From Ornithinimicrobium cryptoxanthini (lineage in GTDB: Bacteria > Actinomycetota > Actinomycetes > Actinomycetales > Dermatophilaceae): a stretch of 64,000 bases of DNA. Position 1 is the stretch's first letter. The number at the start of each line of letters is the position of its first letter. Shown here piece after piece: positions 1,442-15,600 of this stretch. Both the position numbers and the translations under genes were made by a program. The stretch lies in the NCBI RefSeq assembly GCF_023923205.1, contig NZ_CP099490.1:2914001-2978000 (forward strand), in the 5' to 3' direction. The notes beneath the pieces were generated by a model. The model had not been told where the DNA came from. It saw only the letters and a list, made by a program, of their open reading frames with translations, and did not search any database.

Positions 1442-3577
1442 ATGCCCGTCCCCCGACGCAGACCTGATGTGCCCCCGCCCCTGGGGGTCACCGTCCACAA
1501 CGGAGCGGCCGACGTGTCGGTGCTGGCGGCCCACGCCGACCTGGTCGAGCTGTGCCTGTTTGACGAGGACGGCACCGAACGGCGCGTCCCCCTGTCCCGC
1601 CGGGCGTACGGCGTGTGGTGGGACGTCGTGGCCGACGTCCGACCCGGCCAGCGCTATGGCTTCCGCGTGCACGGGCCGTGGGCACCGCAGGACGGGCAGC
1701 GGCACAACCCGGCCAAGCTGCTGCTGGACCCCTATGCCGGCGCGATCGACGGGACGGTCACCTGGGGGCCGGAGGTCTTCGGGCACGTGGTCGACGACAG
1801 CTGGGTCGGCGACGGGGAGACCCGCGACGACCGGGACAGCGCCTCGTTCGTGCCGAGGTCGGTGGTCGTGGACCACTCGCGCTTCGACTGGACCGGTGAC
1901 CTCGTGTCGGCCACACCGTGGACCGGGTCGGTCGTCTATGAGGCTCACGTGCGCGGCCTGACCATGCGTCACCCCGGCCTGCCCGAGGAGATCCGGGGGA
2001 CGTATGCCGCACTGGGCCACCCCGTCATACTCGAGCATCTGACGGGGTTGGGGGTGACCACGCTCGAGCTGCTGCCGATCCATGCGTTCACCCACGAGCC
2101 GCACCTGGTCCGCAACGGGCTGACGAACTACTGGGGCTACAACACGATGGGCTTCTTTGCTCCGCACGCCGGGTATGCCGCGGCGTGCGACCCGCAGGGC
2201 GTGGTCGACGAGGTGAAGGGCGCGGTCAAGGCGCTGCACGGGGCTGGCATCGAGGTCGTCCTGGACGTCGTCTACAACCACACCTGCGAGCAGGGCAGCC
2301 GCGACGGTGCGACGCTGTCGTGGCGGGGCCTGGACAACGCGACCTACTATCGCCTGGACGAGCGCGGGCACGACATCGACGTCACCGGCTGCGGCAACAC
2401 GGTGGACCTGCGCCAGCCGCTGGTCGCCAAGATGGTGCTCGACTCGCTGCGGCACTGGGTGACCGAGTTCCACATCGACGGCTTCCGGTTCGACCTGGCG
2501 CCGGCGCTGGCACGGGGGCGCGACGACGCCTATGACCCCGACCACGCCTTCCACGTGGCACTGCGCACCGACCCCGTGCTCTCTCGCGTGATGCTGATCG
2601 CCGAGCCGTGGGACGTGGGCGTGCACGGTTGGCGCACAGGGCAGTTCCCGCCGCCCTTCGCCGAGTGGAACGACCGGTTCCGCGACACCGTGCGCACGTT
2701 CTGGCTGCCGGACACCGCCCGTGCCCTCGCCGGTGAGACCGGACACGGCGCCCGGGAGCTGGCGACCCGATTTGCCGGGTCGGCCGACCTCTATCAGGCC
2801 GACGACCGTGGCCCGATCGCGTCGGTCAACTTCGTCACGGCCCACGACGGGTTCACGCTGGCTGACACCACGGCATACGAGCGCAAGCACAACGAGGCCA
2901 ACCTGGAGGGCAACCGGGACGGTCACGGCGACAACCGCAGCTGGAACCACGGGGTCGAGGGGCCGACCGACGACCCGGCGATCCTGGCCGCGCGGCGGCG
3001 CTCGGCGCGCAACCTGATGGCGACGACACTGTTGGCCACGGGTGTGCCGATGATCACTGCCGGCGACGAGCTGGGGCGGACCCAGGGCGGCAACAACAAC
3101 GCCTACTGCCAGGACAACGAGATCAGCTGGCTGGACTGGGAGGCAGCCGATGCTGACCTGCTCGCGACCGTGACGCGCCTGCTGGAGCTGCGGCGGGCAC
3201 ACCCCGCGCTGCGCCCGCCGGAGTTCCAGACCTTTGACGCGGTGCCGGGGCGGGTGCGGCTGCGGTGGTTCGACACCGAGGGGCAGGTGCTGTCGGAGCA
3301 GCAGTGGACCGACCCGGGCCTGCGCACGCTGGTCGCCGTGCTGGACGACCGGGCGGTAGCCGAGGTGGCCGGTGCGCAGCCGGACTTCGTGATGATCGTG
3401 CTGAGCGGGGCGCTGGATGCCGTGACGGTGCGGCTGCCCGACGCCGATGTGGAGCGACCGTGGCAGGTGGAGTGGGACAGCAGCTGGGAGACCCCGCAGG
3501 GTCCGACCGAGGTCGGCGACGAGGTGCGGGTCGAAGCACACTCCGTAGTCGTGCTGGCCACCCCCCAATTTTCATAG
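1442..3577 (+). CDS. glgX: glycogen debranching enzyme GlgX (GH13)
   Basis: Hydrolyses alpha-1,6 branch points of phosphorylase-trimmed glycogen. 711 residues, normal for GlgX. The N-terminal CBM48/isoamylase-like domain covers about 1-150, followed by the GH13 barrel. The four conserved regions are visible: VVYNHT (I), GFRFDLAP with nucleophile D351 (II), IAEPWD with acid/base E388 (III) and VTAHDGF with D469 (IV). It starts at the ATG that follows a TAGGCT -10 box by 7 nt. The stop TAG lies inside the first unit of a 32-bp-period repeat, so the last residues (TPQFS) are partly repeat-encoded. Acts with GlgP, encoded 3 kb downstream on the other strand. Confidence 0.95.
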   Translation: MPVPRRRPDVPPPLGVTVHNGAADVSVLAAHADLVELCLFDEDGTERRVPLSRRAYGVWWDVVADVRPGQRYGFRVHGPWAPQDGQRHNPAKLLLDPYAGAIDGTVTWGPEVFGHVVDDSWVGDGETRDDRDSASFVPRSVVVDHSRFDWTGDLVSATPWTGSVVYEAHVRGLTMRHPGLPEEIRGTYAALGHPVILEHLTGLGVTTLELLPIHAFTHEPHLVRNGLTNYWGYNTMGFFAPHAGYAAACDPQGVVDEVKGAVKALHGAGIEVVLDVVYNHTCEQGSRDGATLSWRGLDNATYYRLDERGHDIDVTGCGNTVDLRQPLVAKMVLDSLRHWVTEFHIDGFRFDLAPALARGRDDAYDPDHAFHVALRTDPVLSRVMLIAEPWDVGVHGWRTGQFPPPFAEWNDRFRDTVRTFWLPDTARALAGETGHGARELATRFAGSADLYQADDRGPIASVNFVTAHDGFTLADTTAYERKHNEANLEGNRDGHGDNRSWNHGVEGPTDDPAILAARRRSARNLMATTLLATGVPMITAGDELGRTQGGNNNAYCQDNEISWLDWEAADADLLATVTRLLELRRAHPALRPPEFQTFDAVPGRVRLRWFDTEGQVLSEQQWTDPGLRTLVAVLDDRAVAEVAGAQPDFVMIVLSGALDAVTVRLPDADVERPWQVEWDSSWETPQGPTEVGDEVRVEAHSVVVLATPQFS

Positions 3578-12690: not shown

Positions 12691-15600
12691 ATGGCCACGC
12701 TGACACCATCGTTCGCGGATTTCCTGCCCGGGTGGGTGGCGAGGCAGCGGTGGTTCGCCGGCAAGGGGCGCGAGCCCCAGCTGCGCCGCATCGGCGGCTA
12801 TCGCCTGGAGGACCCGGCCGACGAGGTCGGCATCGACGTCCACCTCGTCGTCGACGAGTCCGGGCCCCGTCCGGTGACCTATCACGTGCCCCTCACCTAT
12901 CGCGGCGAAGCCGCACCGGAGCTGCACACGGCACTGGTCGCCACGACCGAGCACGACGAGCTGGGCACCCGGTGGGTCTATGACGGCTGTCACGACCCCG
13001 TCTATGTCCAGGCACTGGCCGACCTGATGCACTCCGCAGGCAGCGTCAGCGGCAGTGACGAGGGCACCGGACTCACGGGGAGCGCCACCACGGCACGGTC
13101 CCAGGGTCCGCGCCCGGTGGTGCGCCGCAGCGCCGTCCTGGTCGGCGAGCAGTCGAACACGTCAATCATCGTCGAGACCGGGGAGCCTGGCGCGTCAGCG
13201 CCGGTCATCATCAAGGTCTTCCGGGTGCTGCAGGCCGGGGAGAACCCCGATGTTGCGGTGCAGAGCGCCCTGGCCGAGGCGGGCAGCACGCTGGTGCCGC
13301 AGCCGGTGGGCTGGGTGAGCGGCACCTGGCACGAGGCCGACGGATCGCTCGCCGAGGGTCACCTGGCGTTCGCCCAGGAGTTCCTGCCCGGTGTCCAGGA
13401 CGCCTGGCGCCTGGCGCTGGTCGCCGCCCGCGACGACGAGGACTTCACCGAGCGGGCCCGCCTGCTGGGCAGCGCGACCGCCCAGGTGCACGCCACCTTG
13501 CGCGTGGCGTTCGGCACCCAGGAGCTGACTTCGCAGGTCCGTCAGGGACTGCTGGACCGGTGGCGCGAGCGGCACGAGGAGGCGGTCGCCGCGGCGCCGG
13601 AGCTGCAGGAGTATGCCGACCGGTGCGCTGCCGTCTATGCCGCGGCCGCGCAGGCCGACTGGCCCCCGTTGCAACGCGTGCACGGGGACTATCACCTCGG
13701 TCAGGTGCTCGATGTCCCCGATCGCGGCTGGGTCCTGGTCGACTTCGAGGGCGAGCCGCTGCGCGCGCTCGAGGAGCGCGCCCGCCCGGACCTGGCGCTG
13801 CGCGACGTGGCAGGCATGCTGCGCTCGTTCGACTACGCGGCCGGCTCGATCGCCCAGGAGGGCGACCTCGACCGGGGCAGCTGGGCCGGGGCGGCCCGGA
13901 CTGCGTTCCTGGACGGCTACGCCACTGAGTCCGGCGAAGACCTGTCGGCTTCTGCTGCCCTGCTGGCGGCACTCGAGCTGGACAAGGTGCTCTACGAGGT
14001 GGTCTATGAGGCGCGCAACCGGCCGTCCTGGGTTGGTATCCCGGTCGCGGCGGTGCGCTCGCTGGTAGGCCGGCCGACGAACGGGGCCTCCGAGGGGCCT
14101 GCCTCGACCCTCCCGGCCGAGGGTGGCGGGGGAGACGAGGCGACGACACCCGGGCCCAGGGTCGACCTCCGCCAGCCCGCCGACCCCCCGCCGGCCGCCG
14201 GTGAGGCCGATCAGCAAAACCACTACAAAAATGCGGGGCCGGGCGACGAAACCACTACAAAAATGGGGGTGGAACCGCGGCCGCTCGACGACCAGGACCT
14301 CGAGCGGCTCCTCCGGGGCCTGCACCATGACCCCCACTCGATCCTGGGGGCGCACCCGCACGACGGTGGCATCACCATCCGAGCCCTGCGGCCGCTGGCT
14401 GAGACGGTGACCGTGCTGGTCGACGGCGGTCGCCACCCGATGCGCCACGAGAAGCACGGCATCTGGACCGCCGTGGTGCCGGGCACCCAGATCCCGGACT
14501 ACCGCATCGAGGTGTCCTGGGGCGGCGGTGGGACCCACGTGCAGGACGATCCTTACCGCTTCCTGCCGACCCTGGGCGAGATGGACCGGCACCTGATCTC
14601 CGAGGGTCGTCACGAGCAGCTCTGGAAGGTGCTCGGCGCACACCTGAGGACGTATGACGGACCGCTGGGTCAGGTGCGCGGCACCAGCTTTGCGGTGTGG
14701 GCACCCCACGCGCGGGGCGTGCACGTCGTCGGCGACTTCAACCAGTGGGACAACACCGCCCACCCGATGCGGGTGCTGGGCACGAGCGGGATCTGGGAGA
14801 TCTTCGTGCCCGATGTCTGGGAGGGCACGCGCTACAAGTTCGACATCAGCGGCCCCGACGGGCACCGCCGGCTCAAGGCCGACCCGATGGCGCGCGCGAG
14901 TGAGGTCCCTCCGAGCTCCGCCTCCGTCGTGACCCACAGCTGGCACGAGTGGGGCGACGAGGAGTGGCTCAGGGCCCGGGCCGAGCACGACCCGCACTCC
15001 GGCCCGATGAGCATCTACGAGGTGCACCTGGGCTCCTGGCGCCAGGGCGCGTCATACCGTGACCTCGCAGAGCAGCTGACCCGCTATGTGTCGCAGATGG
15101 GCTTCACGCACGTGGAGCTGATGCCGGTCATGCAGCACCCCTATGCGCCGTCGTGGGGCTATCACGTCACGGGCTACTACGCCGCAGACGCGCGCTTCGG
15201 CTCCCCCGACGACCTGCGCTACCTGATCGACCGGCTGCACCAGGAGGGGATCGGCGTGATCCTGGACTGGGTGCCCGGCCACTTTGCGACCGACCCGTGG
15301 GCCCTGGCCCGCTTCGACGGAACGCCGATCTATGAGCACCCCGACCCGCGGCGCGGCTGGCAGAAGGAGTGGGGCTCCTTCATCTTCGACTTCGGCCGGC
15401 CCGAGGTGCGCAACTTCCTGGTGGCCAACGCGCTCTACTGGCTGGAGGAGTTCCACGCCGACGGCCTGCGGGTCGACGGCGTCGCCTCGATGCTCTATCT
15501 CGACTACTCCCGCAACGACGGCGAGTGGCTGCCCAACAAGTTCGGCGGACGGGAGAACCTCGAGGCGGTGGCGCTGCTGCAGGAGACCAACGCCACGGCA

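Follow-up and report, generated by a model that had tools for sequence, protein, structure and literature searches.

Sal boxes, the sites of TTF-I, form a protein-roadblock terminator. In yeast, the block to polymerase imposed by Rap1 depends on its binding orientation (PMC10310618, where Reb1 appears as a reference title). Short dispersed elements of other kinds have been described in bacteria: Rickettsia palindromic elements are short insertions that keep the reading frame of numerous unrelated genes (PMC10969869), repetitive extragenic palindromic (REP) elements are short dispersed repeats that occur in arrays and whose families differ by species (PMC3733652), and the DNA uptake sequences (DUS) of Neisseriaceae are dispersed sites with species dialects (PMC3630211). 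Here we describe arrays of short units repeated every 32 bp, starting from a stretch of 64,000 nucleotides (the window) at positions 2914001-2978000 of the single 3.77-Mb contig of Ornithinimicrobium cryptoxanthini (the host genome, G000). No published description of such arrays was found in the literature searched. The evidence supports well that the arrays form a family of phased DNA sites found across the clade, with dialects that changed in concert and an orientation bias relative to genes. As the likeliest mechanism, at a probability of roughly 40%, we suggest that they bind a putative factor that would serve at the ends of genes as a one-way barrier or terminator.

The window holds three pairs of units at an exact 32-bp period, as the initial annotation had reported. 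Array 1 lies at 3562-3625 on the minus strand (cores 3601-3619 and 3569-3587), array 2 at 6164-6227 on the plus strand (cores 6170-6188 and 6202-6220), and array 3 at 14207-14270 on the plus strand (cores 14213-14231 and 14245-14263). Together they give six unit matches at up to three mismatches, against none in 100 shuffles. The earlier remark that the 64 kb holds no further copy was borne out by a weight-matrix scan of the window, which returned no fourth array; one weak single unit at 46320, with two mismatches, is probably a chance match. The outer end of array 1 lies on the stop codon of a 711-residue open reading frame (ORF; 1442-3577, plus strand), and that of array 2 on the stop codon of a 907-residue ORF (6215-8938, minus strand), which the initial annotation named putative glgX and glgP. 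As it had also noted, both stops (TAG at 3575-3577 and TGA at 6215-6217) fall within the first unit reached by the transcript. Array 3 is translated in frame within the linker (residues 508-525) of a 1294-residue maltokinase-GlgB fusion ORF (12691-16575, plus strand), and its orientation relative to its gene is indeed the opposite one.

The confinement of these pairs to one pathway cluster proved to be an accident of the window. The core CGAAACCNCTAYNAAAA matches the host genome 113 times at up to two mismatches, compared with 2 matches for a reversed control. Extending arrays in 32-bp steps around the listed matches gave a catalogue of at least 54 arrays and 123 units spread over the whole chromosome, with 39 two-unit, nine three-unit and four four-unit arrays and two with one recognised unit. 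This catalogue, seeded from one pattern, is a lower bound, and a model of the host-genome sites (R1) adds others, for example at 1078477 and 2859781. Before extension, 102 listed sites fell into 55 clusters, and all 47 spacings were 32 bp. Only 3 of the 54 arrays lie in the window, and the host genome has three places where a triplet fits into 11 kb (0.6 expected), the glucan cluster and two others, which leaves the proposed enrichment at alpha-glucan genes without support. KOPS (FtsK-orienting polar sequences), ter and parS are kinds of sites that organise the nucleoid or replication, and the dispersed, phased, protein-site architecture of the arrays would suit such a role; yet the chromosome halves show no clear strand difference (14 plus and 9 minus in the first, 15 and 16 in the second, the origin not being located) and the arrays are coupled to stop codons, so that we regard this explanation as quite improbable.

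Each unit is an asymmetric motif of about 24 bp in which the core is conserved and the spacers vary freely. The sequence logo gives the consensus GRCC-N-R-C-R-AAACC-N-CT-A-Y-N-AAAA-T, after which inner units read GCGKG and the last, outer unit reads KGG. Most core positions carry 1.2-2 bits, and spacer positions 23-25 only 0.1-0.3 bits. No Watson-Crick covariation was found, RNAalifold returned 0 pairs on 69 arrays, giving no sign of the palindromic stem-loop of REP elements and their associated tyrosine transposases (RAYT), and the hairpins formed across 31 arrays equal those of shuffled sequence, unlike the GC-rich hairpin that precedes a T run in an intrinsic terminator, as judged on the hairpin. 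Because the core is constrained, the spacers are near random and covariation is absent, the pattern of constraint looks like that of a protein site on DNA and not of clonal copies. A distance of 32 bp corresponds to three helical turns. The suggestion of a paired binding site three turns apart is thus well supported, by the conserved core, the near-random spacers and the invariant spacing in the host genome as well as by a spacing of 31 or 32 bp in 46 of 48 cases in O. sediminis. Of a second suggestion, paired hairpins controlling transcript ends, the control of transcript ends is plausible and the hairpins are not, in view of the results on covariation, predicted pairs and shuffled sequence.

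The arrays might still act as RNA, as a repeated 3′ untranslated element protecting, processing or localising mRNA, and sense arrays do begin a few base pairs past, or over, the stop codons of many genes. Conserved pairing is absent, however, and Rfam at its gathering score has 0 matches in the window and eight loci. In addition, the period alternates between 31 and 32 in O. sediminis, as for B-DNA, and the core is equally well preserved in the oppositely oriented copies inside ORFs (median 77.6 bits for 8 arrays in ORFs and 77.4 bits for 37 intergenic ones). An RNA element is therefore an improbable explanation.

To place the arrays relative to genes, we used gene calls from a simple codon-usage script rather than a standard annotator, with start codons uncertain. 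In the host genome, 20 arrays lie between convergent genes and 1 between divergent genes; in tandem gaps, 14 have the outer (AAAA) end toward the upstream gene's stop and 4 are reversed; and among the arrays in ORFs, 7 lie deep inside, 1 at a C terminus and 7 at predicted N termini. In 31 of 54 arrays, the outer end falls within 40 bp of the stop codon of a gene transcribed toward the array. A stop on the outer side, seen in 34 of the 54, is by itself no proof of polarity, because every array flanked by convergent genes has one, and for this reason we compared distances in convergent gaps. Of the two ends, the outer is the nearer to its gene in 17 of these 20 arrays (p 0.003), and in 8 of the 9 whose gap holds no second array. 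Where neighbours lie no more than 3 kb apart, their arrangement is (-)(+) in 11 of 11 cases, and all 8 arrays deep in ORFs or at a C terminus face the opposite way relative to the gene. Stop codons are insufficient to explain this: the disfavoured direction offers an open frame in 48 of 54 host-genome arrays and in all 42 arrays of two relatives (G008 and G019), whose sequence leaves two to three frames open both ways, and yet the arrays of these two inside predicted ORFs favour that opposite orientation by 14 to 2 (p 0.004). A bias of the arrays in orientation to genes is well supported; the case for polar placement relative to transcription is weakened by the tandem gaps and the third dialect, taken up below.

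The genus set comprised 31 Ornithinimicrobium genomes, among them Ornithinimicrobium sp. F0845 (G018) and O. sediminis (G015). R1 matches nine of these, with several matches per array: 78 in G000, 130 in G006, 109 in G010, 103 in G018 and 131 in G023, then 27 each in G008 and G019 and 1 each in G013 and G024. The search of the whole genome and of relatives recommended in the initial annotation therefore turned up many more copies in both. In the rest of the order, 148 genomes were scanned under stricter filters for this first dialect only, and none matched. The two single matches outside the main clade are each a good array, one near a ZIP-like transporter ORF (G013, L034 1461-1524) and one behind a uracil-DNA-glycosylase-like ORF (G024, L037 581-644), both named by eye. 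The sites of the window are themselves shared. The GlgB-linker site is occupied by an array in G006, G008, G010, G018, G019 and G023, and in G006, G008, G018 and G019 those at glgX and glgP are occupied as well; G010 has an array at glgP and none clear at glgX, and O. sediminis has arrays behind both genes too.

At such shared positions the motif itself often differs between species. The dialect of G008 and G019, GTCCRAACCTCCCCAARAWT, has 65 and 93 matches there and 0 for the control, with 6 in G000, 8 in G006, 2 in G010 and 13 in G018. From 40 of the 59 listed clusters we assembled 42 arrays in these two genomes, 12 of which share a site with a host-genome array (9 host-genome arrays). In all 12 shared-site pairs, leave-one-out matrices attributed each copy to the species that carries it; all 123 and 107 units were likewise assigned to their own species, with matrices that include the tested units. 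One array has grown to at least eight tandem 32-bp units (G008:C3:60096-60339). In the host genome, a minor variant, GTCCGAACCACCCCAARAAT and near forms, occurs at G000:C1 132847, 660239 and 3600859 and is nearer to the G008/G019 dialect.

Two further dialects were found. In O. sediminis, GTTGCNAGGGAGNTYCCG has 53 matches against 4 for the control, and a second pattern 50 against 0, its 2-18 matches in the other 30 genomes being the background of a loose pattern. Thirty loci there yielded 20 arrays of two to five units, spaced by 31 (27 times), 32 (19), 30 (1) and 62 bp (1), and 14 of the 20 follow a stop codon in the sense direction. The third dialect, CACCGGGCGTCGCCTGTGGTTGC, matches 11 of the 31 genomes with 0 for the control: 151 in G026, 40 in G028, 37 in G021, 22 in G029, 21 in G017, 20 in G030, 18 in G012, 11 in G011, 3 each in G007 and G004 and 1 in G018. 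At 30 of its loci, with two to eight units, 68 of 72 spacings are 32 bp, two are 33, and one each is 31 and 64. In species of this dialect, two units in opposite orientation abut close to the ends of genes and so create a long inverted repeat (L202 19773-19880, L203 1150-1230 and L216 1150-1200), which, judged by eye, could also form a hairpin.

A motif-free period scan of 20 stretches from other genus members gave 13 hits at period 32, one of them a run of N, compared with 7 for the runner-up among periods not divisible by 3. Outside the genus, period-32 hits were few, and those inspected included one short-unit repeat and one in coding sequence. Viral carriage was also considered and dismissed; a scan of viral contigs for the first two dialects gave one match to the first, an AT-rich repeat judged unrelated, and none to the second.

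Species dialects at dispersed sites, seen here between the host genome and G008/G019, are a trait that uptake sequences also show, and the arrays could be self-recognition marks of that kind, dispersed genus-wide in dialects as in Neisseriaceae (PMC3630211). The arrays, at about 50-150 unit matches per genome, nevertheless combine tandem phased units with placement at gene ends, and a role as recognition marks appears very improbable. Uptake sequences are not known to need tandem phasing, gene-end placement or such copy numbers.

Arrays also enter ORFs. In YggS, the array forms an in-frame added loop in G000, G018, G023 and G010, in each species' own dialect; G006 has a degenerate array, 20 of 25 aligned species, including G008 and G019, have none, and the three solved YggS chains compared are gapped at this position. 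Other hosts, in or beside domains, are a GMC oxidoreductase, a MaoC protein, an EIIA-HPr linker, a barstar and the maltokinase-GlgB linker. At shared ORF sites the encoded peptide changes along with the dialect. In-frame insertion in unrelated ORFs is also what Rickettsia palindromic elements do, and the main rival to the barrier is a selfish miniature mobile element of that type, whose insertions would be tolerated behind genes or, if in frame, within loops of proteins and whose dialect would be that of the last amplified copy. The YggS array and the further copies in or beside protein domains speak for it, as do the 30 of 42 G008/G019 arrays that match no array site in the (incomplete) host-genome list and the 6 host-genome matches of a second, G008-like motif variant.

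Other observations fit a selfish element poorly. At the 12 shared-site pairs the sequence changed and the position did not; spacers are near random within a species, whereas re-amplification would carry them along; and the orientation bias in ORFs exceeds what stop codons require. Nor is there a palindrome, such as the one of about 150 bp that marks Rickettsia palindromic elements, the arrays being mostly two 32-bp direct units without pairing. The initial annotation's mobile REP-like element fails on the same ground and on the transposase, the Y1/RAYT family PF01797 being matched in 0 of 31 genus genomes and in 5 of 14 control genomes. We consider a selfish origin unlikely overall, although it and the barrier can both hold in part, if an element that invaded was then co-opted behind genes.

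Returning to the barrier, we infer a factor, its binding and a block to transcription as follows. The arrays would be recognition sites for a putative sequence-specific, fast-evolving DNA-binding factor, two or more copies of which would sit three turns (31.5 bp) apart on one face of the helix and together make up a polar complex. With its AAAA side facing a stop codon, the complex would stop or release an RNA polymerase that is done with the gene, as a one-way roadblock or terminator, and would also separate convergent genes. An array facing the other way would let polymerase pass and thus be tolerated in gene bodies. The helical phasing, the constraint on the core, the orientation relative to genes and the species' own dialects at shared sites speak for this reading. 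Among glgP ends, a strong hairpin follows the stop in 54 of 80 array-free cases and in 2 of 9 with an array (Fisher p 0.012); only this gene supports the replacement of an intrinsic terminator by an array.

A number of results weigh against a barrier. The nine glgP carriers are related species. An uncorrected hairpin contrast between array and non-array gene ends vanished on control for base composition: hairpins at least 5 kcal/mol below shuffle follow 5 of 31 array and 14 of 75 non-array ends in the host genome (p 0.46), and the same test in O. sediminis gives 2 of 13 and 4 of 14 (p 0.94). Strong hairpins follow 1 of 3 glgX ends with an array and 15 of 55 without, a comparison of little power. 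Termination is something we infer here, because the within-genome contrast is gone after that control and glgX likewise shows none. The 14 to 4 bias in tandem gaps becomes 14 to 8 (p 0.29) if four N-terminal arrays are added; the 7 N-terminal arrays of the host genome all face the opposite way relative to the gene, but this class is biased, since only open orientations extend an ORF, and by eye four or five of the seven are probably upstream of the true start. Half of the 14 ORF cases in G008/G019 are also near predicted N termini, and the G008 GlgB linker holds a unit in the disfavoured, "blocking" orientation as well, as does the predicted ORF tail that contains 1 of the 20 O. sediminis arrays. 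Orientation is looser in the third dialect, with a sense stop within 34 bp upstream in 9 of 30 rows, and single spacings of 38 bp in G006 and 31 bp in G019 break the period. Finally, no array-binding protein emerged from this analysis.

Between the convergent arrays 1 and 2 sits a 315-residue ORF (5134-6081, minus strand) without a Pfam family. It is in place at the glgX-glgP site in 6 of 8 relatives examined (G006, G010, G008, G018, G019 and O. sediminis) and was not found there in G013 and G020. We rejected a mobile cassette between inverted arrays because the gene is in place in relatives, O. sediminis with its different dialect among them, and the pairs fit convergent gene ends; this comparison excludes the row for an ORF near 3718-5016. 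Elsewhere in the window, 18339-18430 holds two 45-nucleotide direct copies, 47 bp apart and 96% alike. In Marihabitans asiaticum, a different, longer tandem repeat lies directly behind the glgP stop (L242 after 12589, by eye).

The broadest form of the proposal, which we offer tentatively and regard as doubtful, is that an actinobacterial genus ends many genes by a polar, helically phased DNA-protein barrier instead of RNA hairpins, and that the factor and dozens of sites, coding copies included, repeatedly switched recognition sequence together (the genus has three or more dialects that seem unrelated, all at 31-32 bp). If true, dozens of sites that changed jointly while staying in place would let one follow directly, by comparing extant species, how a DNA-binding protein co-evolves with its whole site set, and the in-frame copies would be a case of a DNA site imposing peptides on enzymes.

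Among the known systems, REP elements share with the arrays their shortness, dispersal and differences between species; the arrays, however, have no palindrome, and the genus has no Y1 transposase. Like Rickettsia palindromic elements, arrays lie in frame in unrelated ORFs, but they are direct, non-palindromic repeats of about 60 bp that also lie flush behind stops and take different dialects at shared sites. Uptake sequences occur in more copies per genome than the arrays, which in contrast to them are tandem, phased and placed relative to genes. A further likeness that we propose is to the protein-roadblock terminators of yeast, Reb1 and Rap1, in which a DNA-bound protein stops polymerase, the protein here being putative. 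In contrast to Reb1, Rap1 and TTF-I sites, the arrays are bacterial, many per genome, built as direct pairs three turns apart, and rapidly changing in motif; if they are polar protein terminators, they would constitute a bacterial, genome-wide analogue of Reb1-type roadblock termination.

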